Shown here in pieces: positions 10,721 to 23,430 of a DNA stretch of 46,999 bases. The stretch is from an uncultured Clostridia bacterium (GTDB taxonomy: Bacteria > Bacillota > Clostridia > Christensenellales > Aristaeellaceae). The stretch is from contig CAMKEI010000013.1 of assembly GCA_946411525.1 (NCBI GenBank), positions 1-46,999 of the forward strand, in the 5' to 3' direction. Position numbers and translations under genes: made by a program. Numbering within the stretch: position 1 is the stretch's first letter; every line of letters begins with the position of its first letter. A model generated the notes under the pieces. That model was not told the DNA's origin, did no database searches, and worked only from the letters and a program-made list of their open reading frames with translations.

Positions 10721-11071
10721 ATGATCAGGAAAAAAGACGAATGCAAGGTGGAGTACAGGGAAAAAATGCGGGATGGGGAAGGCGTGGTAAAGATGACATC
10801 CCTCATCAGCGGCCCTGAGGAACTCAACGGTAAAGGACGCCTCTTCAGCCGAATCACACTGGAGCCGGGATGCAGCATCGGCTACCATGTTCATGAGAAA
10901 GAGGCGGAACTGTTTTATATCCTGAACGGTACCGGGACTTATTCAGACAACGGAAACATCAGAGAAGTGAAAACCGGAGATGTGACAATCTGCGAAAACG
11001 GCCACGGACACAGCATAGCCAACACCGGAGAAGAGACGATGAATGTAGTTGCCGTCATCGTTTACGCCTGA
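10721..11071 (+). CDS. Small cupin-domain protein
   Basis: A 116-residue single-domain cupin. Motif 1 (G-x5-HxH-x3,4-E-x6-G) is visible as SIGYHVHEKEAELFYILNGTG, with the two His and the Glu that bind a divalent metal. Motif 2 (G-x5-PxG-x2-H-x3-N) is GDVTICENGHGHSIANTG, where the usual Pro is Asn but the metal-binding His is kept. Stand-alone cupins of this size include sugar isomerases, dioxygenases and regulators, so no reaction can be assigned. The start at 10721 follows GCGAGGAGAG. It has its own promoter and lies alone between a GH3 remnant and the end of the inserted element. Confidence 0.8.
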   Translation: MIRKKDECKVEYREKMRDGEGVVKMTSLISGPEELNGKGRLFSRITLEPGCSIGYHVHEKEAELFYILNGTGTYSDNGNIREVKTGDVTICENGHGHSIANTGEETMNVVAVIVYA

Positions 11072-11129
11072 ACGGAGCAAGGGAATTGATCTTTGTCCGG
11101 AAACAGAGGGTTAAAGTGGGTTGCAAGGC

Positions 11130-11172
11130 AAAGAAAAAAACCGGAACCGGTTGACAAATCAACGGTTTCGGG
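11130..11172 (-). terminator. Probable original guaA terminator, displaced by the inserted element
   Basis: On the minus strand a stem (CCGAAACCGTTGA with TCAACCGGTTCCGG, one bulge) is followed by seven T. It begins about 10 bases after a stop codon that ends a duplicated guaA tail (11182-11199). Its place and orientation fit a terminator that once followed guaA and was pushed 12 kb away. Confidence 0.75.
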
Positions 11173-11181
11173 CTTTTGCAA

Positions 11182-11199
11182 TCACTCCCATTCTATTGA
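11182..11199 (-). other. Element end with displaced guaA 3' tail
   Basis: On the minus strand this reads TCA ATA GAA TGG GAG TGA, i.e. Ser-Ile-Glu-Trp-Glu-stop, the same five final residues as the intact guaA at 23413. The two 18-base stretches share 15 bases. The 7-bp block TGGGAGT (11184-11190 as ACTCCCA) is identical and is flanked by mismatches, so the crossover most likely fell inside it. Confidence 0.8.
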
Positions 11200-11294
11200 A
11201 ATTAACGATTTTTGTTTAGCCTTTGTGTGTCCTGGTCTCTCCAGTTGATCTGATTCAACAGAGTATTTGTATTATCCCTGCTATCCGGCCAGAT

Positions 11295-11316
11295 TTTATC
11301 ATTTCTTTATCAGAGC
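11295..11316 (+). repeat. 22-bp direct repeat, left copy (integrase arm-site candidate)
   Basis: This 22-mer is identical to 23336-23357 and in the same orientation. It contains two TTTATCA heptamers spaced 11 bases apart, one helical turn. In this copy an inverted partner follows, making a perfect 9-bp dyad (TTCTTTATC at 11303-11311, GATAAAGAA at 11317-11325). The stretch 11200-11393 holds no gene I can support apart from this. Confidence 0.65.
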
Positions 11317-11393
11317 GATAAAGAAGCCGGATGATGGATAACGCAATCTGCACGGATATTATACCGAATCAGACAGTCAGAATCAAGACGGAA

Positions 11394-12029
11394 TCAGGTC
11401 AAACCACAGCCTTTTAGGGCAGAAACACGATCCTCGATGCTTTTCCGGAACTGTTCATCTGTCATAGAGGGATCGCGGGTTGCCTGCCAGATCTCACAGG
11501 GAAGTTGATCACAGGAAGCGCAGTTTGTGAATCGATGCTTATTGGCGCAGCAGGCATAGATCGGACAAGCCTTTCCATTTGCGTGAAACACTTTTCCGCA
11601 GGCTTCATTGCAGCCGGTACACATGTTTCCATGAAGCGGACAGGCGGAACAATCTGTTCCGCAGACAGACAGACCCAGAATTTCCCGTTGCTTCTGCTTC
11701 GGGAAACCTTTCAGAACCAGTTCATAGGAACGATCCAGCCAGTTCTTCAGCAGATCATCCGGAATCTCTCCGTCAGGCTTGACGGAATTCCAGTGCTGCT
11801 TGTTGCTGTAGTATCCGGGGATGATGTCCGGATACTGCTGCTGCATCAGTTCACCTTCCAGCGGTTCCAGCTTCAGGTTGATGTAATAGGGCTGATTACC
11901 ATCATCCAGAAGGATGGCGGCAAACATCTTTCCGCCGATATGATATCTGATCCAGTTCCATTCCGGCTGCAGATCTTTGGTCACGCCGCACTTGGCCATC
12001 AGGTATTCATCGATCCAGGGATACTTCAT
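11394..12029 (-). CDS. MmcQ/YjbR–DUF3795 fusion protein
   Basis: A 211-residue two-part protein. Residues 1-115 match the MmcQ/YjbR fold (KYPWIDEYLMAKCG, then YYINLKLEP, IIPGYYSNKQHWNSV and a final LLKNWLDRSYELVLKGFPK). This is a small alpha/beta fold of unknown function related to DNA-binding CyaY-like folds. The last ~90 residues are a DUF3795-like Cys-rich region with about 14 Cys in CGTDCSACPLHGNMCTGC-type spacing, suited to binding Zn or an Fe–S cluster. The start at 12029 has AAGGAA upstream. It is the first cargo gene inside the element at the end distant from the integrase. Its function is unknown. Confidence 0.75.
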   Translation of the reverse strand: MKYPWIDEYLMAKCGVTKDLQPEWNWIRYHIGGKMFAAILLDDGNQPYYINLKLEPLEGELMQQQYPDIIPGYYSNKQHWNSVKPDGEIPDDLLKNWLDRSYELVLKGFPKQKQREILGLSVCGTDCSACPLHGNMCTGCNEACGKVFHANGKACPIYACCANKHRFTNCASCDQLPCEIWQATRDPSMTDEQFRKSIEDRVSALKGCGLT

Positions 12030-12072
12030 GGCATGTTTTCCTTCCTAATACATAGTTACGGACACATCATTT

Positions 12073-12165
12073 TCAACGAATCGGTTTTCCGCTTTTAATT
12101 TCCTTACGCCATACGGGAGCAGCAACGTCATCAGCCCAGTACTCATCCATTTCAACGATTTTGCC
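12073..12165 (-). pseudogene. Fragment of an NTF2/SnoaL-like protein
   Basis: Read on the minus strand, this encodes GKIVEMDEYWADDVAAPVWR followed by KEIKSGKPIR and a stop. That is the familiar C-terminal end of nuclear transport factor 2/SnoaL-like proteins ('gKI..mdEYw.DdG..P.WR..m.iGkpI'). An in-frame stop lies immediately upstream and no start is available, so only about 30 codons survive. It explains most of the otherwise empty gap between the DUF3795 and HAD genes. Confidence 0.55.
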
Positions 12166-12194
12166 TTACTGTATGAAATCATAAACATTTGTGA

Positions 12195-13100
12195 TTATGT
12201 TAAATGTTGCGGAGTTTGTGAGGTCGAAGCAAGTATTTTAGCTTTTTCCACATTTCGAATTCTATCTGCGATATCCTGTATCTTATTGGTAATCCATAGA
12301 TATGCTGTTGTATTTTGGGAATAATCTGCTTCAGCATACATATCTACACGACCATCTGCGCGCATTTGTTCAACTTGACGCATTGCTTTTAGATCACCCT
12401 TCGGATAAATAGCAAAAGTAGAACCTCCATTTTGTTTGACAAGGGAAAAAGCAGGAATATCACTGGGCCCATCGGCAATATATATCATGTTTTCGAACTG
12501 AACACGTCTTAGTTCTTTCGGTATTTTGGAATTAACGTTAATTTCTGGGAGTTTTCCAATTCCTTTGTTTATCTCAAAAATAGCCCGCGTTTTTGTTGTG
12601 TTATCAATTGTGTAAATAATTTCACTTATTACATCTTCTCCGTTATATGTAGAATCCAATAATTCACATCCCCAAACACCATCGACAAAGGGCATAAGAG
12701 CTGAACCACGTATGGTTTCAGCAAATCCAGTGCTTACGATGTAATGCTCGACTTGAATGCCGTAATCTGTATACAATTTGTTTTCAGAAAACATATGCTT
12801 GGTTCGCTCAAAGATTTCAGGAATCCCAGGATAGAATTTTTGTTCTTTTCCAAACTCATGCAATGCCGCATTGCTTAATCCGGGGAATGTCCCATTATGT
12901 GCACATTTGATAAAATGGTTAAGATAATAGGTATCAGCATTAACCCTAATTCCTTTGCATTCCAATTCTTTGGGAATGGAATTCACTTTTTTCCAGAAAT
13001 CATGTGCATCAATATTATACTTTCTGAAAATTGGGTCTTGCATATACCCATCAATCAAGGTTTTGTCACAATCCCATATTATTGCAATAATGTTTGCCAT
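12195..13100 (-). CDS. HAD-superfamily hydrolase (phosphatase-like)
   Basis: A 301-residue haloacid dehalogenase-type protein. Motif I is WDCDKTL (Asp10 nucleophile, Asp12 acid/base), motif II is YIVSTGF (Ser/Thr), and motif IV is IADGPSD with the two Mg2+-binding acidic residues. A motif III Lys is plausible near ELRR/K. A cap insertion lies between motifs I and II. The most likely activity is a small-molecule phosphatase, but no substrate can be deduced. The gene is clearly AT-richer than its chromosomal surroundings, which marks it as acquired cargo. It lies 61 bases downstream of brnA on the same strand and may be transcribed with the toxin-antitoxin pair. Confidence 0.75.
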   Translation of the reverse strand: MANIIAIIWDCDKTLIDGYMQDPIFRKYNIDAHDFWKKVNSIPKELECKGIRVNADTYYLNHFIKCAHNGTFPGLSNAALHEFGKEQKFYPGIPEIFERTKHMFSENKLYTDYGIQVEHYIVSTGFAETIRGSALMPFVDGVWGCELLDSTYNGEDVISEIIYTIDNTTKTRAIFEINKGIGKLPEINVNSKIPKELRRVQFENMIYIADGPSDIPAFSLVKQNGGSTFAIYPKGDLKAMRQVEQMRADGRVDMYAEADYSQNTTAYLWITNKIQDIADRIRNVEKAKILASTSQTPQHLT

Positions 13101-13161
13101 GCGCTGAATTCTCCTATCAGAATGTACTGATTCAGGCCGCTTGAGTTATTTGCTCAATACA

Positions 13162-13488
13162 TTACATGCTTTTGGCGACCATCTGGGGATCATCGATCGC
13201 ATTGTCCAGCAAGCGACTCAGAAAACCGGTATAACCCTTTCCGGTTGCTTTGGCTTTTTCCAATGTGCTGATTGAGACACGGAGAGCGACAACTGGTTTA
13301 ACTTGCTTGCTTCTTCTGCTCCGGGCAATTGCTGCCATTTCAGCATACTGTTCCAGCGTCAGTTCGGGAGCGTCTTCATCGGGCACGACCGGCTTGGCCA
13401 TAGCTGCTTCAATTTCTTTGATCTGTTCATCAGTCGGCTGCTGTCCAGGACGAACAACAGTCTGAACCATCTTTTCATTCTTCGCCAT
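13162..13488 (-). CDS. brnA: BrnA-type antitoxin
   Basis: A 108-residue antitoxin placed directly behind brnT and overlapping it by 14 bases. The C-terminal part (VALRVSISTLEKAKATGKGYTGFLSRLLDNAI) has the BrnA/CopG-like ribbon-helix-helix layout ('v.iRls.evl...ka.G.GyqtrineaLr..v'). The N-terminal ~70 residues, rich in Glu, Asp and Pro, are probably flexible and protect the toxin. I chose the ATG at 13488 because GAAAGGAAG precedes it; the ATG at 13506 has no such site. BrnA normally dimerises, neutralises BrnT and represses its own promoter. A matching inverted repeat lies over the brnT promoter. Confidence 0.8.
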   Translation of the reverse strand: MAKNEKMVQTVVRPGQQPTDEQIKEIEAAMAKPVVPDEDAPELTLEQYAEMAAIARSRRSKQVKPVVALRVSISTLEKAKATGKGYTGFLSRLLDNAIDDPQMVAKSM

Positions 13489-13765
13489 AGTAAATCTTCC
13501 TTTCATATGGTGTTGCCATCCGCGCAGAGATCAGACGTGCATACTCATCTCTCATGGTATAAACAACATACAGTATTCCCTGAACGCATCCCAGAACCAC
13601 GTATCTTTCTTCATCCTGGCTGTGCAGCTTATCAAGGTATTCAATCCGCTCCTCATCGGCAAATACCAGTGCGGCAGTCTGAAAACTGATTCCATGCTTC
13701 TTGATGTTTTGCTGGTTTTTGTTTTCATCCCATTCAACCAGCGTGCCGGCAATCTCAGATCTCAT
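13475..13765 (-). CDS. brnT: BrnT-family ribonuclease toxin
   Basis: A 96-residue toxin of the BrnT family, a RelE-fold ribonuclease that inhibits growth by cutting RNA. The family signature is clear: VEWDENKNQQNIKKHGISFQ, VFADEERIEYLD, EERYVVLGCVQGILYVVYT and RLISARMATPYERKIYY. The toxin gene comes first and the antitoxin second, the usual BrnTA order. The ATG sits only about 7 bases after the -10 box, so the mRNA is probably leaderless. The pair likely stabilises the element in its host. Confidence 0.9.
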   Translation of the reverse strand: MRSEIAGTLVEWDENKNQQNIKKHGISFQTAALVFADEERIEYLDKLHSQDEERYVVLGCVQGILYVVYTMRDEYARLISARMATPYERKIYYGEE

Positions 13766-13770
13766 GTATT

Positions 13771-13799
13771 AAGTATAACGCAAAGTAATACTTTTGTAA
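13771..13799 (-). promoter_or_regulatory. brnTA promoter with overlapping operator
   Basis: On the minus strand TTACAA (13794-13799), a 16-base spacer and TATACT (13772-13777) form the promoter. The inverted repeat AAGTAT...ATACTT (13771-13776 and 13788-13793) covers the -10 and spacer. This is a natural binding place for BrnA or the BrnT–BrnA complex. Confidence 0.6.
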
Positions 13800-13811
13800 A
13801 TGGTCAGATCG

Positions 13812-13851
13812 GCAGACAAAAAATCCTCTCAGGCGTTTCTGCCTGAGAGGA
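13812..13851 (-). terminator. Intrinsic terminator after the 13858-14472 gene
   Basis: A perfect 11-bp stem (13824-13834 with 13841-13851, loop GTTTCT) is followed on the minus strand by TTTTTTGTCTG. It separates the leftward hypothetical gene from the brnTA promoter. Confidence 0.85.
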
Positions 13852-13857
13852 GCAGGA

Positions 13858-14472
13858 TTAATTCTGTTTCAGCAGATCACGGTAAAACTGCAGAGCCGAC
13901 TCAAAAGCATCGGGGTTGTTGTTGCATGCGGCAAGAACGCCAGGCATCTGCTCAAGGAGTGTTTTTGCCCTGTCCGCATTGCCCGTTTCCGTATTTCTGG
14001 AGAATTGATCTCTGTAGATCATTTCCAGAAACCTGAGTTGCTGCTGGCAGGTCGTTTCCCTGGCTATGAAGGCCTGACTTGTTGCTTCCGCGATGTGGCC
14101 GGCATCATCTTCGCCACCCTGATTTGTGATGTTTTCCATCGTCGAAAGCAATTCGTTCATGAAGAGCATTTCTTTCCGGATGGCGTCCATCCGATCAAGA
14201 AGGCCTTCGATTGTCAGGTCACCCAGTTTGTTATCCGGTTGCTTTGCACTTTCGGTATCATCGACATGCTCTGCTACAGTTTCTGCTTGCTTAATGTTTT
14301 CCATTTCGTTGTCCTCCATTTGTTCCGGCGGACACGCAAGACAGATTGTTCGTTCATCCAGCCAGCGTGCCCTGCCTTTTTTCACAAGACCGTTGGCTCT
14401 TTTCAGCCAGGTAGATTCAAATACTGTCCCGTTTTCGTCCACCACAATAATGTTTTTTTCGATGGGTATCAT
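13858..14472 (-). CDS. Hypothetical protein with a 'WLKRANGLVKKGRARW' domain
   Basis: A 204-residue protein of unknown function. The first ~50 residues (IIVVDENGTVFESTWLKRAN, then GLVKKGRARWLDERTICLAC) form a small conserved module that I have seen in clostridial hypothetical proteins, possibly a compact nucleic-acid-binding fold. After an acidic linker, the rest is helical and polar (GLLDRMDAIRKEMLFMNELL) and may form a coiled coil. The frame could begin at a TTG at 14562, but that codon lies inside the -35 box of a good promoter. The ATG at 14472, touching AAGGGGG, is preferred although the spacing is unusually short. It lies between an Xre-TPR regulator and brnTA. Confidence 0.55.
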   Translation of the reverse strand: MIPIEKNIIVVDENGTVFESTWLKRANGLVKKGRARWLDERTICLACPPEQMEDNEMENIKQAETVAEHVDDTESAKQPDNKLGDLTIEGLLDRMDAIRKEMLFMNELLSTMENITNQGGEDDAGHIAEATSQAFIARETTCQQQLRFLEMIYRDQFSRNTETGNADRAKTLLEQMPGVLAACNNNPDAFESALQFYRDLLKQN

Positions 14473-14532
14473 CCCCCTTGCGGTGTCAGCCTGCTGTTTT
14501 TTCTGATGGGTGTCGTCCCCGAGGCTGAATAC

Positions 14533-14562
14533 ATTATAGGAAAACACAGAATGTCCCGTCAA
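14533..14562 (-). promoter_or_regulatory. Promoter for the 13858-14472 gene
   Basis: Minus-strand TTGACG (14557-14562), an 18-base spacer and TATAAT (14533-14538). The predicted transcript starts near 14526, leaving a leader of about 54 bases. That leader contains a near-copy of the translation start region. Confidence 0.65.
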
Positions 14563-14583
14563 GATACAAATCGCTTATATTGG

Positions 14584-15684
14584 TTATGCTTCTATGTGCT
14601 TTCTTATTGCTGCAACAATCTGACTGAATCTTTCACTGTCCTGGTATCTCTCGAAATACTGATTGGCAGTCAGATGATCCATAAGCGTTTCATAATAGGA
14701 TTTTTCATTGTGCTTAATCGAATAAGTTTTGCCATTATCTATTTCAGAAAGCCAGCATGGTTTGTAGCGGCTATCATATGAAATCTTATCGTATGATTCG
14801 GCGTATACAATAGCTTTTTCAATTTCTTCATGCGCCATGTCATCATTTCCGGCATTCATGTGTGCTTTGGAAAGGGGCAGAGCATTACAAAACAGAAGAT
14901 CAAGATAATGGAGAGGTTCATCATCTGTTACCAGCCTGACCAGTTTCTCATTGAAATGCAGAATATCAATTTGTTGATCCGGTGAATAGTTCCAGCATTT
15001 TCTGATTCTGCTGATCACATTTGAGGTTGCCCACATCAGATTCAGCAACAAAGCTTGCCATGCACGGAGAGCTTCTTTCCCTTCCAGTGTTCTCGGATAA
15101 AGCATATCACAGGTTGTAGGAATATGCGGCAAAGAGGAAGCAATCTCCTGAGCTTTTGTTCTGTTACCGAGATATGTATACAGGTATACAAGCAGTTGTT
15201 TGAAGTAACACGGATTGAAATCTTGACCAGAGAATCTTATCCCTTTTTGACAAAGCTCTATGATTTCTTCTGCCTCTTTTCTTTTTTCATGTTCATCGAA
15301 CAATTCACCACTCTGGAAATAGAGACTGTACAGCGAAGCGGCAAGAGCGTCCATAATCTCCGGAGAGTTTGGGTATTCATTCAGCTTTCCGGAAAGATAA
15401 TCTATGGACTGCTGATTCATTCCCTTTGAAGTGAAATGCTCTCTGTTGTATTCCAGTATCGTGTCAATCTCTTCTTTTTTTCGGGTAATGTCTACGCCCA
15501 GCAGTATATCTGTCGTGACATTGAAGAAGCGTGCCAGTGCAGGCAACTGTGATATATCCGGAGCGGTGCGATCACATTCCCACTGTGAAACCGCTTTGGA
15601 TGTGATCCCAAGACTGTCCGCTAACTGCTCTTGGGTTATATTCTGTTCCTGACGGATTTGCTTTATTCTGGATCCTATTGTCAT
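14584..15684 (-). CDS. Xre-family regulator with C-terminal helical repeats
   Basis: A 366-residue regulator. Residues 1-60 are a Cro/C1-type HTH (IGSRIKQIRQEQNITQEQLA, then DSLGITSKAVSQWECDRTAP) that binds DNA. The remaining ~300 residues are all-helical with a TPR-like pattern, e.g. the EEIIELCQKGIRF and AHEEIEKAIVYAESY segments. This is the layout of RNPP/Rgg-type peptide-responsive regulators and of many helper proteins on mobile elements. The start at 15684 is set by GGAGG; the upstream Met at 15783 lacks a site. No peptide gene is visible next to it. It lies between the oriT-like region and cargo and may control transfer or cargo. Confidence 0.75.
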   Translation of the reverse strand: MTIGSRIKQIRQEQNITQEQLADSLGITSKAVSQWECDRTAPDISQLPALARFFNVTTDILLGVDITRKKEEIDTILEYNREHFTSKGMNQQSIDYLSGKLNEYPNSPEIMDALAASLYSLYFQSGELFDEHEKRKEAEEIIELCQKGIRFSGQDFNPCYFKQLLVYLYTYLGNRTKAQEIASSLPHIPTTCDMLYPRTLEGKEALRAWQALLLNLMWATSNVISRIRKCWNYSPDQQIDILHFNEKLVRLVTDDEPLHYLDLLFCNALPLSKAHMNAGNDDMAHEEIEKAIVYAESYDKISYDSRYKPCWLSEIDNGKTYSIKHNEKSYYETLMDHLTANQYFERYQDSERFSQIVAAIRKHIEA

Positions 15685-15784
15685 GGTTTCGCCTCCTTGA
15701 CCGTTACGATAGCCTGAGTAAATCTTATACGTGACCGTGCTGCTTTGCAAGGAAGCAGATAAAGAATCAAAGTATAGTTTCACT

Positions 15785-16260
15785 TACTATGTTGACGGAA
15801 ACCATTAATATTCTTGGTTGGGCTAAGCACCTTTCGATAATCGTTTCTGCACGGTAAGCTGCTGCGGCCGAAATCATTCATGCATGGTAACGAAAAACGG
15901 GATTTGCATTAAGGCGAATGAAGCGCGCGAAAGTAGAGAGAGCAAGTATCGACCTGTGTCACAAAAATCCGCTTCCGCGTTTTTTGTGCCTTCGGTCAGA
16001 TACTTGTTGGGGAGTGCCTTCCCCAAACCCTGCTCTGGGAACGTTCATCATTCGTGACGCGATTCGCTTTCGTAAGCGATCCCGAAAGCGAATCTTTTCT
16101 ATTTCTTCTGAGGACGATCCTCTTCCTCCAAGGCTGCGCAATCGGATTGTATACAAAGCATAAGCATCCTCCTCTTTGGAAGAAGTATGGCAGATATGAT
16201 CATCATCTGCGGTGACATGATGCTGCATTAGGCTGAACCTAATTCTCCTGATTAAATAAA
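15785..16260. other. Gene-free, palindrome-rich region (oriT candidate)
   Basis: No gene is supported in these ~480 bases, but four dyads are visible. A large hairpin has CAAGTATCGACC (15943-15954) pairing with GGTC-A-GATACTTG (15994-16006) and an inner CACAAAAA/TTTTTGTG pair (15960-15967, 15981-15988). Next come TTGGGGA/TCCCCAA (16007-16026) and GATTCGCTTTCG/CGAAAGCGAATC (16061-16094). The last is ATTAGG/CCTAAT (16227-16243). The region lies directly upstream of mobC and the relaxase, the usual place for an origin of transfer. The nick site cannot be identified. Confidence 0.5.
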
Positions 16261-16287
16261 AAAGTATAATTTATTTTCTCGAAAGAC

Positions 16288-16334
16288 TTTTCAAAACTTA
16301 AACATTGTTGTATAATTAAGCAACTAAGTTTAAG
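16288..16334 (+). promoter_or_regulatory. mob operon promoter with flanking dyad
   Basis: TTTTCA (16288-16293), a 17-base spacer and TATAAT (16311-16316). The inverted repeat CTTAAAC (16297-16303) and GTTTAAG (16328-16334) is centred on the -10 box and would suit autoregulation by the ribbon-helix-helix MobC. Confidence 0.6.
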
Positions 16335-16354
16335 AAACGAAGGAGGGAAGCCTA

Positions 16355-16756
16355 ATGAGTACGGAAACGAAATCAGGGAAAAAGGAAACTCTTGATCATG
16401 TTGTTAAGGCAAGAGTAACCGAACTGGAGTACTATAGAATCATGGAAATCTGTCGACGCCTGAAGATGACACCGTCATCATTGATCCGTTTTTTGCTAAG
16501 ACATGGAGAGGTTCATGCAACTGTTTATGAAAACGGAGTCAATGATCAGACGCTGACACTGCTGAATCAGATCATCACCGAACTCAAACGGATCGGAAAC
16601 AATATCAATCAGATTGCCCGGGTCGCGAATACAATCGGACTGGATGATCCGGTTCTGATCGAAAACCTCAATAAGGCATTGGGCGATCTGACTGAAAGTA
16701 AACATTTACTTCTGGAAAAGGCAGGTGATGCAATTGGCAACCATAAAGCATGTTAG
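16355..16756 (+). CDS. mobC: MobC-like relaxosome accessory protein
   Basis: A 133-residue protein of the MobC type. The N-terminal half (KARVTELEYYRIMEICRRLK and MTPSSLIRFLLRHGE) resembles a ribbon-helix-helix DNA-binding unit. The second half carries the MobC signature ELKRIGNNINQIARVAN, followed by a Leu-rich helix. MobC proteins bind oriT, help melt the DNA around the nick and assist the relaxase. The start at 16355 follows GGAGGG. The relaxase gene overlaps it by 29 bases, so the two are translationally coupled. Confidence 0.85.
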   Translation: MSTETKSGKKETLDHVVKARVTELEYYRIMEICRRLKMTPSSLIRFLLRHGEVHATVYENGVNDQTLTLLNQIITELKRIGNNINQIARVANTIGLDDPVLIENLNKALGDLTESKHLLLEKAGDAIGNHKAC

Positions 16757-18443
16757 CTCGAAGAATGCCAATTACGGCGATGCCGAAAGCTATCTGACTT
16801 TTGAGCATGACGAGTTCTCCGGGAAAGCATTACGGGATAAGAACGGTCATCTGATTCCGCGGGAAGAGTATCGGATGGATACGCTTCTATGCGGTGAAGA
16901 TGATTTTGCGATTGCCTGTATGAGAGCGAATCTGCATTTTGGGAAAAACAATCTGCGCGGAGATGTGAAGAGCCATCACTACATTATCAGTTACGATCCG
17001 CGTGACGCGGAAGATCACGGACTGACTGTTGATCGTGCTCAGGAACTCGGAGTTGAATTTTGCCGAAAGAACTTTCCGGGACATCAGGCAATGATCGTTA
17101 CGCATCCGGATGGTCACAATCACAGCGGAAACATCCATACGCATATTGTAATCAACAGCTTACGCATCGAAGATGTTCCGCGGATGGCATACATGGATAA
17201 AGCCTGCGATACAAAAGCCGGTATGAAACACAGATGCACATCAGCCTGTCTCCGCCATTTACGTGCGGAAGTGATGGAGATGTGTCAGGAAAACGGATTG
17301 TATCAGATTGACTTGCTGGGCGGAAGCAAGGACCGCGTTACAAACAAAGAGTATCTTGCGCAGCGCCGCGGTCAGCAGAAACTGGATGAAAAGACAAACG
17401 GTGCGGAATCCATTTCGGATGATAAGCCATCCGGCAGTATAGTCTCTGTTGACGATAAGCCGGCAAAGACGTCGAAGTATGAAACGGATAAAGAGAAACT
17501 GCGCCGGGCTATTCGTTTCGCTTTGGACCGTGCTGACAGCATGGAAAGCCTCACGAAACTGCTTTTGGAACAGGGCGTTTCCGTCAAAGAAAGCAGGGGA
17601 AGATTCAGCTATCTTTCTGCTGACAGACCGAGGCCGATCACAGACAGAATGCTTGGAGATGACTTTTTACGGCAGGCTGTTCTGGATCAACTGGCGAAGA
17701 ATGCCCGACTGGGATCTGACGCTGAGAGGATTGTTATTGATCAGACTGTAACCGAACAGAATTCGAATGATCCGATTGCTGTGACGAAGACGGTTCTGAA
17801 TATGCTGCTGAAACAGACATCAGTCGTTATAAAGCCGGATAGAGAAAAGAAACTGGAACGCGTTGTTGACATTGATAAGATCATTGAAAACGGAAAAGGT
17901 GAAGGATACAGACAATGGGCCATGGAGCATAATATCAAACAGATGGCCGGATCTATGAGTTATCTGAGCCGCCACGGAATCAACAATTATGATGAACTGA
18001 AGAACAGGCTGAATGCCGCTCTGGACAAAAAAGACAATCTGTTACAGCAGATGAAATCCATTGAAGGCCAGATTAGGGAGAAGAAGGAACTCCGGGATCA
18101 GATCCTGAAGTACGGAAAGAACAAGGACGTTTATACTCAGTGGCGAGGCATGAAAGACGGAAAAAAGAAGGATGCCTTCTATCAGGAACACTGCGCCGAA
18201 ATCATTCTGACAGAAGCGGCGGAAAAATATTTGCGGGCACACGGAATCAAATCCCCGCTGCCTTCGCCAAAGAAAATTCAGGCGGAAATTGAGGATCTAA
18301 TCAGCCGAAAAGCGATCCTGACACAGGAATACCAGGAAGCGAAAAAAACGGCGGATGAACTGGGAACCGTCAAACACAATATTAATGAAGTTTCACAGAA
18401 GTTCCAGCAGCAGAAACGGATCGATCGGGAGTTTGCCAGATAA
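16728..18443 (+). CDS. mobA: Relaxase / mobilization nuclease
   Basis: A 571-residue relaxase that nicks oriT and leads the DNA strand into the recipient. The N-terminal ~220 residues hold the nuclease domain. The metal-binding histidine motif is seen in VTHPDGHNHSGNIHTHIVIN with closely spaced His pairs (HNH, HTH), and the likely catalytic Tyr lies near the N-terminus (NANYGDAESYL). The C-terminal half is highly charged and helical, with coiled-coil stretches such as KKDNLLQQMKSIEGQIREKK, and probably contacts DNA or the coupling protein. The start is ATG 16728 (GTG 16725 is possible), inside the end of mobC. No helicase or primase domain is evident. Confidence 0.9.
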   Translation: MQLATIKHVSSKNANYGDAESYLTFEHDEFSGKALRDKNGHLIPREEYRMDTLLCGEDDFAIACMRANLHFGKNNLRGDVKSHHYIISYDPRDAEDHGLTVDRAQELGVEFCRKNFPGHQAMIVTHPDGHNHSGNIHTHIVINSLRIEDVPRMAYMDKACDTKAGMKHRCTSACLRHLRAEVMEMCQENGLYQIDLLGGSKDRVTNKEYLAQRRGQQKLDEKTNGAESISDDKPSGSIVSVDDKPAKTSKYETDKEKLRRAIRFALDRADSMESLTKLLLEQGVSVKESRGRFSYLSADRPRPITDRMLGDDFLRQAVLDQLAKNARLGSDAERIVIDQTVTEQNSNDPIAVTKTVLNMLLKQTSVVIKPDREKKLERVVDIDKIIENGKGEGYRQWAMEHNIKQMAGSMSYLSRHGINNYDELKNRLNAALDKKDNLLQQMKSIEGQIREKKELRDQILKYGKNKDVYTQWRGMKDGKKKDAFYQEHCAEIILTEAAEKYLRAHGIKSPLPSPKKIQAEIEDLISRKAILTQEYQEAKKTADELGTVKHNINEVSQKFQQQKRIDREFAR

Positions 18444-18584
18444 CCATTGCCTATGGTTCCGAATCGAAAAATAAAGACTGTTTGCCTCTTGGCCAAACCG
18501 AATATAGAAATCTTCTCTTATTTGAGAGATATGCTCATCAAAAGGACTGTTATCTTCAACTGTTGCAATATTGATGCTTCTGTT

Positions 18585-19616
18585 TTAATATTCTTCACGT
18601 CTTTTCTCTGCTTCCGGAAGATTCAAAGCATCCTTTAACAAATCTCTGATCTTATCTAACAGTTCCTTTTTCAATCTAAAGCTGCTGTTTTCCAGCTTAT
18701 AAAATGGTAACCCAGCAATTTCCATAATAAATGGAGCATCCCACTCCATATTTTTAGTAAAACCACCAATCAATTTGTTAGCTGATGCAATATCATAATA
18801 CGAGTATAAATACAACAATGGATTAAACTGCTGCATAATATCAACATTTTCTATATCGTGTTTCGATAATCGCTCATATACTTCCTGCGCATTAGCTGCT
18901 TTCTCAATCATTTCAGTTTTTCTTGAAAGCGTATATATTTTGTAATACTCGAGAGTATCTCTTGCTTTAGTTCTTATCTCATCTCCTACTGGTTGGTTGA
19001 ATTCCTTAACATTTTTATACTCCGTTAACCGAAGAGTATATAGAACAATCGCTAGTAGCGTAATATAATTACTTTTTTCCTTCTTTCCAGAAAGAATAGT
19101 TCGTATTCTCTCTGGAGAAACATTCATCTTTATGTATGAGCTCTCGCCGTTACTAAACCATTGCTCGATGGGAACATTGGGATTTTTCAGTATTTCCTCA
19201 GGGATAAAAATGTTTTCATTTATAGCAGTGGCTAATTCTTCTATAGTAATACCATTCTCGCGTAATATTCTTGAATAAGTTTGTGAGAATCCCTCTGGTA
19301 TCGGAATCATTCGATAAACCATATCGAAATTGTCTAGCCATAGCATTCTATCTCTTTCTTGCTGCGAAAAGCGAATAGAAACTGTTTTGAATACTCGATC
19401 TACTATTTCATTAAATTCCGTTTCTTCGGAAATAAATTTCAAGCATTTTATTAGTTCTTCAGAATCGATTGATGCTATCCCGCCGCTTTCCAGCTTGGAT
19501 ACGTATGACCTTGATCTTCCCAGCGCTTCTGCCAAATCCTTCGCAGGTATACTGTTTTGCGTTCTGATTGACTTAATCGTTTCCGATAGGCCCTGATCAA
19601 CAATTATCTTCGCCAT
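18585..19616 (-). CDS. Xre-family HTH regulator with long helical C-terminus
   Basis: A 343-residue protein with an N-terminal Cro/C1 HTH (IKSIRTQNSIPAKDLAEALG, then RSRSYVSKLESGG). A ~270-residue C-terminal part follows that I do not recognise; it is helical and may carry a sensing or dimerisation function. The gene is markedly AT-rich, unlike the mob genes beside it, suggesting a separate origin within the element. I start at 19616 because AGAGGGA precedes it. It is divergent from a tiny zinc-ribbon gene and a DUF2188 gene, and shares with them a 250-base region holding a good rightward promoter. It is a plausible regulator of that promoter. Confidence 0.7.
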   Translation of the reverse strand: MAKIIVDQGLSETIKSIRTQNSIPAKDLAEALGRSRSYVSKLESGGIASIDSEELIKCLKFISEETEFNEIVDRVFKTVSIRFSQQERDRMLWLDNFDMVYRMIPIPEGFSQTYSRILRENGITIEELATAINENIFIPEEILKNPNVPIEQWFSNGESSYIKMNVSPERIRTILSGKKEKSNYITLLAIVLYTLRLTEYKNVKEFNQPVGDEIRTKARDTLEYYKIYTLSRKTEMIEKAANAQEVYERLSKHDIENVDIMQQFNPLLYLYSYYDIASANKLIGGFTKNMEWDAPFIMEIAGLPFYKLENSSFRLKKELLDKIRDLLKDALNLPEAEKRREEY

Positions 19617-19682
19617 TTTATCCCTCTTAATATCCGGACTTAATTTCGTTGCGGAAATTAGTTTCATAGAGATTGAAAATAA

Positions 19683-19711
19683 TTGACAATACGGCATACT
19701 TGTTGTATCAT
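19683..19711 (+). promoter_or_regulatory. Strong promoter for the zinc-ribbon/DUF2188 pair
   Basis: TTGACA (19683-19688), exactly 17 bases, then TATCAT (19706-19711). The spacer contains ATAC-ttgtt-GTAT, a short dyad that may be an operator for the divergent Xre regulator. The predicted start of transcription is near 19718. Confidence 0.7.
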
Positions 19712-19717
19712 CTATAG

Positions 19718-19865
19718 TGAAAAGGGGCAGTGAATCTTTGGCGAGGCCACTACCCCTGCTGGGTTTACGATTGGAACCCAGCCTTGACTTGAAAAGTCAC
19801 GATGTTATGGTATCAGCCACATCTCTTTCTGTCAAGGTTCAAATCACAATCGAGATGGAGGTGAT
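19718..19865 (+). ncRNA. Structured 5' leader with three successive stems
   Basis: About 150 bases separate the predicted transcription start from the start codon at 19870. Three inverted repeats follow one another. The first is AGGGG-C-AGTG (19723-19732) with CACT-A-CCCCT (19748-19757). The second is GCTGGGTT (19758-19765) with AACCCAGC (19775-19782). The third is CCTTGAC (19782-19788) with GTCAAGG (19831-19837), which encloses a smaller TGACTT/AAGTCA stem. The leader ends in the full-strength SD GGAGGTGAT. I recognise no known riboswitch. A second promoter-like TTGACT–16–TATGGT (19784-19811) overlaps the third stem. Confidence 0.5.
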
Positions 19866-19869
19866 AGGA

Positions 19870-20016
19870 ATGGGAACGATTAGGCGAATTCCGATCCGCA
19901 TCAGGAAAAGAATTTCCTACAAATACTACATATGTTCCTGTGGTCGGAAGATAATCCCGGTTTCAAACCCCAGCCGTTGCCCTTACTGCGGCAAAATTAC
20001 TACATTGAAAGGATAA
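19870..20016 (+). CDS. 48-residue zinc-ribbon protein
   Basis: A very small basic protein: an Arg/Lys-rich N-terminus (TIRRIPIRIRKRISYKYY) followed by a CSC...CPYC zinc-ribbon pair (Cys at about 24, 26, 38 and 41, the last two as CPYCG). The first pair, CxC, is tighter than the usual CxxC. The ATG at 19870 is preceded by GGAGGTGAT at 5 bases. The frame is open further upstream, but that would run through the structured leader without a ribosome binding site. It is followed after 6 bases by a DUF2188 gene. Binding of RNA or DNA is a reasonable guess only. Confidence 0.7.
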   Translation: MGTIRRIPIRIRKRISYKYYICSCGRKIIPVSNPSRCPYCGKITTLKG

Positions 20017-20022
20017 GATAAC

Positions 20023-20244
20023 ATGAACAGCGTAAATGTAATGCCACATCCAGATGGTGGTTGGCAAGTTAAGAGAGACAATGCGAAACGCGCTATCGTG
20101 AGGACAGATACCCAGCGTGAGGCTATCGATATCGCACGTCCTATTTCTCGGAATAGTGGAGATGAGCTTGTCATCCGTAGACCCGATGGGCGGATTCGTG
20201 AGAAGGATTCCCATGGTAGGGATACATATCCGCCAAAGGGGTAA
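20023..20244 (+). CDS. DUF2188 family protein
   Basis: A 73-residue protein of the DUF2188 family, recognised from the full-length pattern VMPHPDGGWQVKRDNAKRA, TQREAIDIARPISRNSGDEL and VIRRPDGRIREKDSHG, ending in YPPKG. The family is widespread in bacteria and mobile elements, and its function is unknown. It is co-transcribed with the 48-residue zinc-ribbon protein and ends just before a clear terminator, so the two form a complete bicistronic unit driven by the promoter at 19683. Confidence 0.85.
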   Translation: MNSVNVMPHPDGGWQVKRDNAKRAIVRTDTQREAIDIARPISRNSGDELVIRRPDGRIREKDSHGRDTYPPKG

Positions 20245-20255
20245 TTATAATTTCT

Positions 20256-20288
20256 GCGCTCTGTCAGAAATGGCAGGGCGCTTTTTTT
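20256..20288 (+). terminator. Intrinsic terminator after DUF2188
   Basis: Stem GCGCTCTG (20256-20263) with CAGGGCGC (20274-20281), one G·U pair, then seven T (20282-20288). Confidence 0.85.
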
Positions 20289-20446
20289 CGCTTGGAATTA
20301 TCATAGTGCATTATTATGAAATAAGATTTCCGCTACTATAACTATTGCTGTTTGTTATGGAAATCAGCAGTTTCCGTTTTTGCACTCTATCAGCTAACTG
20401 CAATAATAGGTTTGGTGGAAACTGAAGAATATCGTTTATATAGTGA

Positions 20447-20480
20447 AAGCCCTTGCGAGTAATCATCATCACAAGGGCTT
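20447..20480 (-). terminator. Terminator-like hairpin after the int–mob–tnpV run
   Basis: AAGCCCTTG (20447-20455) pairs perfectly with CAAGGGCTT (20472-20480). On the minus strand it lies 31 bases after the tnpV stop and is followed by TTTCACTATATAAAC, a weak U-tract. Confidence 0.6.
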
Positions 20481-20510
20481 CTGTCATTATATGGAAACAG
20501 ATAAATTTTT

Positions 20511-20861
20511 TTATACGTTGATAAGTTCGGCTTGTACGATCTCTTCAACCTGGGCCTTACAAGTGTTCATGATTCCGACCCATTTCATCGGATCTCTGGC
20601 TTTCAGCGCTTCGGTTGCTCCGGAGGAGGCAGCAAGCTTCGGCAGGATAGTGTCCAGCCGTTCCTGCGCAGCCCGGTCTGTTTCGTACAGGTGATCGTAC
20701 AGGGTACCGGTTAGGATTATTCGCGTGTACAGCCCGGAACGGTGTTCCTCAAGGTATGCCTTGCGGAGCCGGCCGTAGAGGCCGAGAGGCTTCTGCTGGC
20801 TTTCCGGGATTTCCCAATCCGGGACGAAGTAGTCTTCTTCTTTACGGTACTGGATGTTCAT
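20511..20861 (-). CDS. TnpV-type transposon-encoded protein
   Basis: A 116-residue protein of the TnpV family, found on clostridial mobilizable elements of the Tn4451 type. The conserved stretches are YGRLRKAYLEEHRSGLYTRI, ILTGTLYDHLYETDRAAQER and KARDPMKWVGIMNTCKAQVE. Its biochemical role is not established. Its start overlaps the stop of the upstream mob-like gene by the ATGA arrangement, with GGAGGG as ribosome binding site, so the two are translationally coupled. Confidence 0.85.
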   Translation of the reverse strand: MNIQYRKEEDYFVPDWEIPESQQKPLGLYGRLRKAYLEEHRSGLYTRIILTGTLYDHLYETDRAAQERLDTILPKLAASSGATEALKARDPMKWVGIMNTCKAQVEEIVQAELINV

Positions 20862-21187
20862 GTGTTTTTCCCTCCTTTGATTCCGTTCAGTGTAGTGGTG
20901 ATCAGGGCGATATCCTCAAGCAGTTCATCGCTGGGCTGTACGCCAGTGCTGATCCGCTTCAGTTCCTCCAGGACTTCAGCGAGAGAATCTTTCAGCGCCT
21001 TGTAAACCCGGGGATTCGGCTGTACGGTGATTGTTATGTCCATGCATTTCCGATAGCAGTATTCCTGCTTGGGCAGGCCGGACAGGGCGACGGCCCTGTT
21101 CAGCTGCTCCTGTTCTTCAGGAGATACCCGGAATCCGACCGTGATACTCCTGAAACGATTATGCCTGTCCCGATTCTTAGCTGACAT
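20858..21187 (-). CDS. Second MobC-like, ribbon-helix-helix protein
   Basis: A 109-residue protein resembling plasmid mobilization relaxosome proteins. It has a basic N-terminus, then SITVGFRVSPEEQEQLNRAV followed by ALSGLPKQEYCYRKCMD, a ribbon-helix-helix layout. The tail NPRVYKALKDSLAEVLEELK with RISTG is typical of clostridial MobC relatives. It overlaps the integrase stop by 11 bases and tnpV by 4, so the order int–mob–tnpV is one tightly packed transcript. Having two MobC-like genes, one with the relaxase and one with the integrase, is unusual. This one may instead regulate excision or be left from a second element. Confidence 0.7.
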   Translation of the reverse strand: MSAKNRDRHNRFRSITVGFRVSPEEQEQLNRAVALSGLPKQEYCYRKCMDITITVQPNPRVYKALKDSLAEVLEELKRISTGVQPSDELLEDIALITTTLNGIKGGKNT

Positions 21188-22277
21188 TCCTCATTTCCTC
21201 CTTCTCAGATTTCATAGCGTTGTTCAGCTGTTCTGCCATCTCGTGCTGACGGGAGGGGAACAGATGGGCATACCGGAAGGTGATATCAATACTTTCATGT
21301 CCGACCCTGTCGGCGATGGCGACTGCGCTGAAGCCCATATCGATCAGAAGCGAGATGTGACTGTGCCTCAGATCGTGAATCCTTATACGCTTAACGCCTG
21401 CCTTCCTTGATCCCCGGTTCATCTCGTGGTGCAGGAAGCACTTGGTAAAGGGGAAGATCCGTTCGTTTTTCTGGATCTTGTACAGGGACCGGATATATTC
21501 CTGCATCTCTTCACACAGGAAGTCCGGCATTTCAATGGTTCGAATACTCTTGCGCGTTTTCGGCGTGGTGATCAGATCCTCGCCGCGGATGCGCTGATAA
21601 TTCTTATTGATCCGGACGGTCTGCTTGTTGAAGTTGAAGTCCGCCGGCGTCAGGGCCAGGAGTTCTCCCTCGCGGATACCGCACCAGTACAGCATCTGGA
21701 AGGCGTAGTAGGACATGGGCTTATCCATTACCGCTTCCGCAAACCTCAGGTACTCATCCTTCGTCCAGAACTGCATTTCCTCGCTTTCCTTGCGTCCGAT
21801 GGGGCCGACCGTGGAAGCAGGATTGCTTTTCAGCCCATAGTGCCTGACCGCGTGGCTAAAGATAGCGACCAGCTGGTTGTGAACCGTCTTCAGATAGGTA
21901 TCCGAATATGGCTTCTTCTTTTCATCCCGGTAGGCGAGCATCTCGTTCTGCCAGGCGATGATATCCTTGGTTTCAATCTCGCTGATGATCCGCTTCCCGA
22001 AGGCCGGGATCAGCTTGTTGTTGATGATATTCTCCTTGGTCAGCCAGGTGCTTTCCTTCAGCCGCGGCCGGCGATCCCGTTCGTACAGTTCGCAGAAGGC
22101 CGCGAAGGTCATATCCATATCCGCGGCGTTTTGCTGCATGAAAGCCCGCTCCCAGTCCTGGGCATCCTTCTTGGTGGCGAAGCCGCGCTTGCATTTCTGG
22201 CGGGTTTCTCCCTTCCAGTCCCGGTACCATGGCATTGCGATCCATTTACCGGTTTTTTCATCCTTATATACTGACAT
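21177..22277 (-). CDS. Tyrosine recombinase (integrase)
   Basis: A 366-residue integrase of the Tn916/phage type. Residues 1-50 form the AP2-like arm-binding domain (VYKDEKTGKWIAMPWYRDW, then FATKKDAQDWERAF). Residues 55-150 form the SAM-like core-binding domain, and the rest is catalytic. The active-site set is complete: Arg202 in GIREGEL, a Lys near 240, His301 and Arg304 in HDLRH, His327 in GHESI and Tyr336 in FRYAHLF. GAGGTG precedes the start, and the gene overlaps xis by 14 bases. It should act on the 7-bp core ACTCCCA in guaA, with the phased TTTATCA repeats as candidate arm sites. Confidence 0.95.
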   Translation of the reverse strand: MSVYKDEKTGKWIAMPWYRDWKGETRQKCKRGFATKKDAQDWERAFMQQNAADMDMTFAAFCELYERDRRPRLKESTWLTKENIINNKLIPAFGKRIISEIETKDIIAWQNEMLAYRDEKKKPYSDTYLKTVHNQLVAIFSHAVRHYGLKSNPASTVGPIGRKESEEMQFWTKDEYLRFAEAVMDKPMSYYAFQMLYWCGIREGELLALTPADFNFNKQTVRINKNYQRIRGEDLITTPKTRKSIRTIEMPDFLCEEMQEYIRSLYKIQKNERIFPFTKCFLHHEMNRGSRKAGVKRIRIHDLRHSHISLLIDMGFSAVAIADRVGHESIDITFRYAHLFPSRQHEMAEQLNNAMKSEKEEMRNVS

Positions 22278-22467
22278 TCTTCTTCACCTCTTTTCCTGCC
22301 AGATAGAACCTCTCTTTGAAGTAAATCCGGTTGATCCGTCCCGAGACGGTTTGGAATCCCTTGCTCCGGAGCTCTTCGTTCAGCTCCCGGATCACTTTAT
22401 AGGCATAGGCCTTCGATACACCGAGTTCCTCTGCCACTTCCATCGCGCTCATAAAGCTCTGATTCAT
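22264..22467 (-). CDS. Excisionase-like winged-helix protein
   Basis: A 67-residue protein with an MerR-like helix-turn-helix (SAMEVAEELGVSKAYAYKVI and RELNEELRSKGF), followed by the wing GRINRIYFKERFY. It is the usual companion of element integrases and helps bend att DNA for excision. The ATG at 22467 is preceded by GGAGG; the frame could extend to 22518 but without a site. Its end overlaps the start of the integrase, and it is transcribed from a promoter that faces the Xre regulator. Confidence 0.8.
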   Translation of the reverse strand: MNQSFMSAMEVAEELGVSKAYAYKVIRELNEELRSKGFQTVSGRINRIYFKERFYLAGKEVKKNVSI

Positions 22468-22524
22468 CTCAGCTTCCTCCTTTCCGATGCGCGGATCGTA
22501 ATCGTTGATATTAAGCATAACAGC

Positions 22525-22567
22525 TTAATTCGCTTATTATAATACTAAGCAAATAAGATTGTGTCAA
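22525..22567 (-). promoter_or_regulatory. xis–int promoter and operator
   Basis: Minus-strand TTGACA (22562-22567), a 17-base spacer and TATTAT (22539-22544). An imperfect dyad, ATTCGCTTA (22528-22536) and TAAGCAAAT (22546-22554), brackets the -10. The same TAAGCAAAT half-site recurs in the opposite-facing promoter at 22621. Confidence 0.65.
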
Positions 22568-22610
22568 GTGGCTTTTGAGAAAAAATTAAATATTTCTGTT
22601 AAGGAATCCA

Positions 22611-22639
22611 TTGCGCATTCTAAGCAAATTTGCTATAAT
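22611..22639 (+). promoter_or_regulatory. Promoter of the element Xre regulator
   Basis: TTGCGC (22611-22616), 17 bases, TATAAT (22634-22639). The spacer ends in the perfect 12-bp palindrome AGCAAATTTGCT (22623-22634), a likely autoregulatory operator that shares its half-site with the xis promoter. Confidence 0.7.
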
Positions 22640-22668
22640 CAAGAAAAACAAAGGTTTGAGGTGAACGT

Positions 22669-23196
22669 ATGGCAACCGGAGAGCGGATTCGCTTTTTCAG
22701 AACATTACGGGGGATGACACAGAAGTATCTGGGAATCGAACTGGGGTTTCCGGACAATTCCGCTGATGTCAGACTGGCGCAGTACGAAAGTGAAGATCGG
22801 ACGCCCAAGGCGGATTTGACAGCATCCATGGCGGAGATACTGGATGTTTCTCCGAAGGCAATTGCTGTTCCAGACATTGATTCCATGGATGGATTGATGC
22901 ATACGCTTTTCGCGCTGGAGGACAGGAATCTGATTCGTATCGCTAATGTGGATGGCATGATCTGCATCCGAGCGGCGATTTTTGACGGCGGAATCCATGC
23001 TGCGGATCTGGAACAGCGGCTTCAGTCCTGGGAAAAGCAGGCTGCATTGCTGAAGGCGGGAGACATCACGAAGGAAGAGTACGACCGCTGGAGATATCAC
23101 TATCCGGAATTCGATGATTCGAGTATCCGGGTTAAGATCCCTGAGGAAGTGCCGACCAAGGGCAAACGGGGACGGAAACCGCAAAAGAAAGATTGA
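22669..23196 (+). CDS. Xre-family transcriptional regulator of the element
   Basis: A 175-residue regulator with an N-terminal Cro/C1 HTH (GERIRFFRTLRGMTQKYLGI and ELGF...VRLAQYESEDRTP). A C-terminal region of about 100 residues with an acidic-aromatic segment (ITKEEYDRWRYHYPEFDD) and a Lys/Arg-rich end follows. It diverges from xis–int. The shared operator half-sites in both promoters suggest it represses excision and itself, as in phage-type switches. GAGGTG precedes the ATG at 22669. A good terminator follows at once. Confidence 0.8.
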   Translation: MATGERIRFFRTLRGMTQKYLGIELGFPDNSADVRLAQYESEDRTPKADLTASMAEILDVSPKAIAVPDIDSMDGLMHTLFALEDRNLIRIANVDGMICIRAAIFDGGIHAADLEQRLQSWEKQAALLKAGDITKEEYDRWRYHYPEFDDSSIRVKIPEEVPTKGKRGRKPQKKD

Positions 23197-23203
23197 CATG
23201 AAA

Positions 23204-23246
23204 AAGCCCTCCGATCTGCGGATTGCTTATCCACATCGGAGGGCTT
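23204..23246 (+). terminator. Hairpin terminator after the Xre gene
   Basis: A perfect 12-bp stem, AAGCCCTCCGAT (23204-23215) with ATCGGAGGGCTT (23235-23246), starts 8 bases after the stop codon. The U-tract is short (TTAATA). Confidence 0.7.
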
Positions 23247-23288
23247 AATACATATTCTGTAGACGAAACCGATAACTTTTCTCGTTAC

Positions 23289-23328
23289 CCCACAACCACT
23301 GTATATCGGAGCAATGTGGGTGTTTTTT
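23289..23328 (+). terminator. Second terminator near the element end
   Basis: CCCACA (23289-23294) with TGTGGG (23315-23320), then TGTTTTTT. It would insulate guaA from rightward element transcripts. Confidence 0.55.
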
Positions 23329-23335
23329 GGAAAAC

Positions 23336-23357
23336 TTTATCATTTCTTTATCAGAGC
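23336..23357 (+). repeat. 22-bp direct repeat, right copy (integrase arm-site candidate)
   Basis: Identical over 22 bases to 11295-11316 and in the same orientation. It has two TTTATCA heptamers 11 bases apart and lies 58 bases inside the right core. In the excised circle the two copies would flank the joined att core. Confidence 0.65.
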
Positions 23358-23412
23358 ACCTTTAGAGACCTCTGAGAGCGTTGATCCGTAAGCGGTTAAG
23401 CGTTTTCGGCGC

Positions 23413-23430
23413 TTACTCCCACTCAATTGA
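23413..23430 (-). other. guaA-side att site
   Basis: The last six codons of guaA (TCA ATT GAG TGG GAG TAA) contain the 7-bp core TGGGAGT (23415-23421 as ACTCCCA). The bases after the core, including the stop codon TAA in place of TGA, would come from the element, so the GuaA C-terminus is preserved. Confidence 0.75.

Follow-up and report, generated by a model that had tools for sequence, protein, structure and literature searches.

What occupies the 3' end of guaA in the 46,999-nucleotide stretch of DNA analyzed here (the window), and where does it begin and end? The window is one contig (CAMKEI010000013.1) of the draft genome of an uncultured Clostridia bacterium (GCA_946411525.1; 2.45 Mb, 113 contigs, 85% complete). 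Judging from sequence, the 12-kb foreign stretch in the guaA end is very probably a guaA-specific integrative mobilizable element (IME), which would make it capable of passing between gut bacteria. It has its own integrase, flanking attachment (att) sites, and its own relaxase, and no pore genes were found among its 16 open reading frames (ORFs). The domain order of the integrase and the tandem repeats on both arms point to the IntTn916 type. The evidence comprises the boundaries, the gene content, the arm repeats, the geometry found in relatives, and the empty sites of other species.

Ends of the element in guaA

The target gene, guaA, encodes a GMP synthase of 512 aa (PF00117 and PF00958) and is located on the minus strand at 23413..24951. 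The heptamer ACTCCCA (plus strand) is present at 11184..11190 and 23415..23421, with mismatches flanking it on each side, so that the repeat TGGGAGT and both of its positions proved to be exactly as given in an earlier note on this DNA. In the minus-strand reading, the guaA end is ...CAATTGAG TGGGAGT AAGC and the displaced copy is ...CAATAGAA TGGGAGT GATTG. We denote the guaA-proximal copy the core of attL and the distal copy the core of attR. The cores are 12,231 bp apart, and the interval between them is the element. The guaA frame is intact: the codons for W and E and the first stop base (T) belong to the shared core, and the remaining stop bases are derived from the element.

A 7-bp match by itself is weak evidence; that the element is real follows from the drop in guanine-plus-cytosine (GC) content, a 22-bp repeat, the recurring distances between repeat and core, and the alignment of the flank to other genomes. 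In 1-kb windows, GC content is 0.38 to 0.53 between 11001 and 23000 compared to about 0.55 to 0.63 in most outside windows; the segment 10001-11000, just outside the element, is also low (0.505). Per gene, the 16 genes of the interval have 35 to 54% GC, and guaA, asnB, and four left-hand genes have 55 to 64%; the cupin gene adjoining the left end has 50%.

A perfect 22-bp direct repeat, absent from the earlier note, lies inside both ends (11295..11316 and 23336..23357, minus strand). In the reading direction of guaA, its sequence is TGATAAA N4 TGATAAA, two tandem copies of one word spaced 11 bp apart. These tandem 11-bp units are probably integrase arm sites similar to the DR-2 repeats of Tn916. 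Counted from the final T of the core, the arm site is 62 bases downstream at attL and 128 bases upstream at attR.

The mismatches around the cores bracket the crossover to 7 bp, not to one base, and the single-base accuracy claimed earlier was overstated. Because the blocks of shared identity in other members of the group differ in length and one member (L078) has mismatches within the core, comparison of cores does not fix the cleavage positions. The sequence upstream of the attR core differs from guaA in the window and is different again in L042; it appears to be element DNA, and host DNA is certain only past the core. This affects the displaced SIEWE-stop that had been compared to the end of guaA: W and E are indeed encoded in the shared core, but the codons for S, I, and E are upstream of it, on the side of the element, so that the ‘SIE’ is probably a coincidence.

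The displaced guaA 3' flank with its terminator occupies 11113..11183 (minus strand), as delineated by alignment to the genome G022. A consensus scan found a terminator-like stem at 11139-11152, inside the segment 11130-11172 that had been proposed as the original guaA terminator, and the displaced flank aligns to guaA 3' flanks from the same genus, in agreement with that proposal.

Spacing of core and arm sites in related loci

The analysis of att sites was pooled over the window and 350 fetched loci, the majority of which were picked by similarity to one integrase. An integrase scan of genome contigs yielded 283 loci, of which the best 80 were used; these relatives are mostly from Clostridia, several of them from ruminant guts. 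In 52 of the 80 loci, a guaA gene of matching orientation is found no more than 3.5 kb upstream. The targets include both full-length guaA and a shorter guaA paralog matching about 315 residues. The arm-to-core spacings of 62 and 128 recur in these relatives: among the 53 guaA-anchored loci (the 52 and the window), the tandem is exact and at +60 to +62 in 48, imperfect and at about +61 or +62 in three, and at +123 in two.

The two ends of an element generally carry the same word. Consecutive attL-attR pairs numbered 39, including the window (exact duplicates were dropped, and related elements were counted separately), and the 7-base arm word was identical in 36 of them; when the pairing was shuffled 10,000 times, the number of identical pairs averaged 13.2 and never exceeded 23. 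Among the pairs with an attL word other than TGATAAC, 15 of 17 were identical, the remaining two being L290, with one mismatch, and L335, where the reading phase is shifted by one. In the other unequal pair, L079, an attR with a foreign word intervenes, and its own attR follows 236 bp further on.

A single Markov resampling with the strict word pattern produced no attL and no attR in 3.89 Mb. For the relaxed pattern, resampling (7.28 Mb, both strands), run as its own control after the junctions had been counted, produced no attL, one attR, and no junctions between adjacent elements, compared to 140 attL, 72 attR, and 43 junctions in real sequence before removal of duplicates. To 100 loci (L251-L350) chosen independently of the integrase (195 genomes of the class searched with guaA, 151 matches at E 1e-140, 100 fetched), the same geometry applied in part: an exact tandem at +57 to +65 was found in 20 of the 100, against a background expectation of 0.7, with at least 85 bases past guaA available in 96. 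In this class sample, 17 of the 100 contigs break off no more than 500 bp past guaA (a count made for guaA alone), as expected for a site that is repeated or mixed in the population.

Within the genus, 45 genomes were searched and 30 guaA loci, including the window, were read. Seven have a tandem at +60 to +62, seven have TGGCTAC at +69 to +72, one has a tandem at +49, and 15 have none between +40 and +140. The TGGCTAC loci (L004, L012, L017, L023, L024, L025, and L027) form a second guaA insertion group in the genus; in three of these genomes (G018, G008, and G003), an integrase with about 50% identity is arranged tail to tail with guaA.

Within these data, the arm geometry can be regarded as solid. 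The core combined with 11-bp arm tandems at fixed spacing makes both ends of a guaA element readable from sequence, including arrays and draft genomes, and this signature marks the ends of many guaA elements, with almost no matches in resampled sequence.

Empty sites and the displaced flank

The earlier note expected relatives in which guaA is followed directly by the displaced terminator. In two genomes, G022 and G028, a terminator does follow guaA, the element is absent, and the next gene is a convergent one for a PHP-domain protein, but both genomes belong to other species, and the genes beyond differ from those of the window. The displaced flank is 76% identical to the uninterrupted guaA end of G022 over 88 bp; that of G028 gave no blastn match and yet aligns with it in the flank alignment. 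In two further genomes (G012 and G030), a guaA tail with a similar terminator is found about 5 kb downstream of guaA, and the one in G012 has an arm tandem at the attR distance. If the interval is a guaA-specific IME, the empty site of the same species would read TGGGA(A/G)T of guaA joined to GATTGCAAAAGCC.

The guaA ends of four genomes (G001, G032, G002, and G007; loci L005, L006, L007, and L010; L129:10413) show a different arrangement, in which the last guaA codons are followed by an apparent inverted copy, 15 nt exact in L005 and imperfect by eye in the other three, and then by runs like ACTCTTCACTC. G002 also contains a fragment that resembles guaA residues 443-488 (52%), about 11 kb downstream of guaA (C1:3189495-3189632; L126:7263-7400).

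Gene content and predicted mobilization

The Pfam scan covered the 16 ORFs assigned to the interval, with shorter and overlapping ORFs outside the scan. The integration module adjoins attL. It starts with a helix-turn-helix (HTH) regulator (22669..23196, plus strand; HTH_19 below cut-off) that adjoins the integrase in most related loci. The next gene encodes a probable excisionase of 84 aa with an HTH (22264..22518, minus; phrog_989; NF047858, ICEBs1 Xis, at 56.7 bits, below the cut-off of 100). The tyrosine integrase (366 aa; 21177..22277, minus) has the Tn916-type domain order, with arm-binding PF14657 (residues 11-49), SAM-like PF14659 (57-113), and catalytic PF00589 (172-341), all above cut-off. 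It is followed by a NikA/MbpA-like protein (20858..21187, minus; PF21983, MbpA below cut-off), found beside the integrase in most related loci, and by TnpV (20511..20861, minus; PF14198).

The mobilization module consists of a relaxase of the MobA/VirD2 type (572 aa; 16725..18443, plus; PF03432 at 39.6 bits vs a cut-off of 24.6; phrog_26285 across residues 4-562) and the relaxosome protein MobC (16355..16756, plus; PF05713 and PF21983). Upstream of MobC, a stretch of 110 bases (15936..16045, plus) has a predicted DNA fold of two stacked hairpins at -25 kcal/mol, compared to a mean of -11.4 for shuffled sequences (z -5.64). It is conserved in alignments with G031 and G005 and is a candidate origin of transfer (oriT). 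No conjugation pore genes (type IV secretion system, T4SS) were recognized by Pfam among the 16 ORFs.

The remaining genes are cargo. BrnT toxin (13475..13765, minus; PF04365) and BrnA antitoxin (13162..13506, minus; PF14384) probably stabilize the element. The others encode a DUF2188 protein (20023..20244, plus; Pfam), a small protein that matched no Pfam family (19717..20016, plus), an HTH_3 regulator with 35% GC (18585..19697, minus; Pfam), an XRE-family regulator (14584..15783, minus; Pfam), a protein for which none of the Pfam, PADLOC, NF, and phrog profiles matched (13858..14562, minus), and a HAD-like protein (12195..13100, minus; below the Pfam cut-off). The DUF2188 and HAD-like proteins match the PADLOC candidate defense families PDC-S16 and PDC-S34 (E 2.4e-60), respectively, and are thus candidates for a defense function. 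BrnTA, TnpV, and the two MobC/NikA-like proteins named in the earlier note are all borne out by Pfam matches. Its description of the element as complete holds in the sense of parts, since the expected genes and both ends appear to be present.

The leftmost gene, encoding a YjbR/DUF3795 protein (11394..12029, minus; Pfam), was considered as a sign of a misplaced left end. In related genomes, it is found near a MATE gene (G022), in the interval from guaA to MATE (G002), or on the downstream side of guaA (G012). We read it as cargo because a second copy (89% identical, one internal TGA) is located on another contig of the same genome (C24:7463-8089). The cupin adjacent to the insertion also has a second copy in this genome (77%; C8:23470-23814).

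Relatives appear to share the backbone but not the cargo. G031 has an integration module beside guaA (integrase 73%, NikA 96%, TnpV 82%, HTH 76%, and Xis 50%) and mobilization genes on another contig (relaxase 67%, MobC 76%); the cargo stretches of the window gave no alignment in this genome. In G005, a sibling element is inserted at the shorter guaA, and its far end is followed by another attL with the arm word TGATAAA. L042 carries a 5.6-kb element between TGATAAA att sites (8871-14472), with an integrase of 82% identity and NikA, no match to the window relaxase, and one ORF that is actin-like by eye. Among viral contigs, 10 stretches matched a relaxase pattern, none of them a relative. The relaxase matched 26 plasmid records, all below 60% identity (23.5% among the matches listed, 10 of the 26), and the best integrase match among phage records, in an unannotated fecal record, was 62%.

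DNA binding, excision, transfer, and the role of each protein can be predicted from this organization. The core-binding and catalytic domains of the integrase would bind the core sequence around TGGGAGT, and its N-terminal domain would bind the tandem 11-bp arm sites (TGATAAA) on both arms of the element. Recombination of attP with attB in guaA would restore the full guaA frame and displace the former 3' flank, with its terminator, to the opposite end of the element. The integrase and the excisionase-like protein would release the element in circular form. The relaxase and MobC, possibly assisted by the second, NikA-like protein, would nick the candidate oriT at about 15.94-16.05 kb, and the pore would be provided by a conjugative helper element.

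Weighing the alternatives

Several points weigh against the interpretation of the interval as a guaA-specific IME. The exact junction was compared across species only, in a genome collection with one genome per species. The cupin and MATE genes left of the insertion differ from the genes that follow guaA in G022 and G028, and in G002, MATE is 29 kb from guaA. The displaced terminator matches the guaA flank of G025 as well (81% over 43 bp); given that this flank holds a TGGCTAC tandem, the word of another element group, likeness of the terminator alone is no proof of a native flank. Integrase loci without guaA within 3.5 kb number 28 of the 80, some of them short contigs and some second members of arrays. 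Finally, the T4SS coupling protein PF02534 was not found in the 85% complete genome, in a search that did not include FtsK-like couplers and was positive in 5 of 14 control genomes; with no PF02534 match in the genome, a helper element was not identified.

A homologous guaA flank in G027 (L134:2000-4340) has a perfect tandem of the word TGGCCAA at +62, followed further downstream by a gene for a Mob_Pre relaxase. G028 (L127:2030-2140) and G022 (L128:1040-1174) contain apparently degenerate forms of this tandem. Considering the tandems in G025 and G027, the supposed native, genus-wide guaA flank may be the scar of an older attL.

The missing coupling protein is also compatible with a decayed, immobile island that has lost excision or transfer, as is the sibling element in G005, where integrase and relaxase are truncated against each other. 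We consider decay of the window element unlikely, given that the frames of its integrase, excisionase-like protein, relaxase, and MobC are open, the integrase aligns over its full length with that of L042 and the relaxase and MobC with those of G031, and both arm sites are perfect.

Far less probable is a composite or accreted island, in which two or more older elements were joined and the two ends moved separately. The guaA site often holds tandem arrays (the fetched loci contain 42 distinct junctions), and GC content ranges from 0.35 to 0.54 among the genes, but a scan of the window finds a single attL and a single attR, which share their word, and no att junction between them, and G031 has both the integration and the mobilization modules, there on two contigs.

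That seven bases recurred by chance in ordinary chromosomal DNA, as they can, is contradicted by the second, 22-bp repeat, the fixed geometry in relatives (at most one match in resampled sequence), the GC drop, and the mobile genes, and we give this explanation next to no credence.

Tandem arrays and arm words

Beyond the well-supported guaA IME, the arrays provide a testable lead. An array junction consists of a single core flanked upstream by an attR arm and downstream by an attL arm. The strict word pattern detected 21 junctions in the loci other than the class sample, and the relaxed pattern detected 42 distinct junctions in all loci. In none of the 42 do the neighbors have the same arm word. 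The junctions fall into 32 clusters of similar context, of which 24 include a TGATAAC member; the chance of 0/24 is 0.08 if TGATAAC has a frequency of 10%, 0.02 at 15% (3/20 tandems of the class sample), and 0.013 at 16.7% (4/24 with other offsets included). Most of the loci were selected by likeness to a single integrase, related strains are represented more than once, and assembly may collapse identical tandem copies.

The integrase positions with the highest mutual information with the arm word, among positions 1-355, are 15, 29, and 16, and the mean is 0.53 for residues 1-55 vs 0.28 for residues 61-355 (54 loci, in which an N-terminal domain and a word are paired in 35 different ways, with statistics that ignore phylogeny). 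The lack of shared words at the junctions and the covariation of residues 15 and 29 with the arm word are suggestive, and this lead is possibly new. A strict recognition code was rejected: the N-terminal domain of L097 (TGGCAAC) is almost like that of L104 (TGATAGC).

These patterns raise the possibility, to which we give somewhat less than an even chance, that the arm word is an address, read by a few residues in the N-terminal domain of the integrase (15 and 29 in the numbering of the window integrase), such that elements with the guaA core stack only with differing words. If arms were shared, an integrase would act on those of its neighbors as well and excise them by recombination. Two observations go against such a rule: at 8 of the 42 junctions, the two words are a single base apart, and G031 (L247) has two TGATAAC attR sites 1.8 kb apart with no recognized attL between them, so that a same-word remnant adjoins its element. 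If the rule is true, arm words would define incompatibility groups of guaA elements, with the window element in group TGATAAA, explain which elements share one chromosomal site, and offer a natural series for studying DNA recognition by an arm-binding domain. According to a review (PMC5704250; compare PMC5357655), the elements of a functional tandem usually have integrases that are distant relatives of each other; arm words do not come up in that passage. Arm-word exclusion was not encountered in the listed titles and abstract beginnings from the open-license literature, a scope that largely omits subscription journals.

Comparison with known systems

The following comparisons refer to the accessible portions of the cited papers. 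Like the IntTn916 subgroup (PMC8138268), the window integrase combines an N-terminal arm-binding domain, a core-binding domain, and a catalytic domain. The arm-binding domain of such integrases reads sites near the core, and clusters of this subgroup prefer the flanks of conserved genes (PMC8138268). The guaA examples in that paper, epsilon15 and CMGI-3, belong to the IntSXT subgroup, a lineage other than that of the window integrase.

Tn5801 and Tn5801-like islands resemble the window element in insertion at the guaA 3' end and in Tn916-family integration, and have 11-bp imperfect direct repeats as the putative core (PMC4844618). Tn5801 differs in its size of 25 kb and in being putatively conjugative, and it carries tet(M) together with genes for conjugation (PMC4844618); neither tet(M) nor a Tn5801-like conjugation module was recognized among the 16 ORFs of the interval.

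Two further comparisons are with IMEs. The streptococcal guaA IMEs with Tyr_3 integrases (Coluzzi et al. 2017, PMC5357655) share the tyrosine integrase, the guaA target, and the IME organization; their mean size is 10 kb, and accretions with other elements are reported. They differ in host, arm words are unmentioned in the portion available, and the likeness is one of description. ATE-1 of Trueperella pyogenes (PMC5704250) is likewise an IME with a tyrosine integrase at guaA, for which a toxin-antitoxin pair is listed; its host is actinobacterial, and it is likened by its table description, not by sequence.

The earlier note called the element undescribed. For its gene combination, this is uncontradicted by the open-license papers listed, but the kind is already known, because guaA-integrating IMEs and integrative and conjugative elements (ICEs) are in print. 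The element is new as an individual and adds a guaA-specific IME to the published ones.

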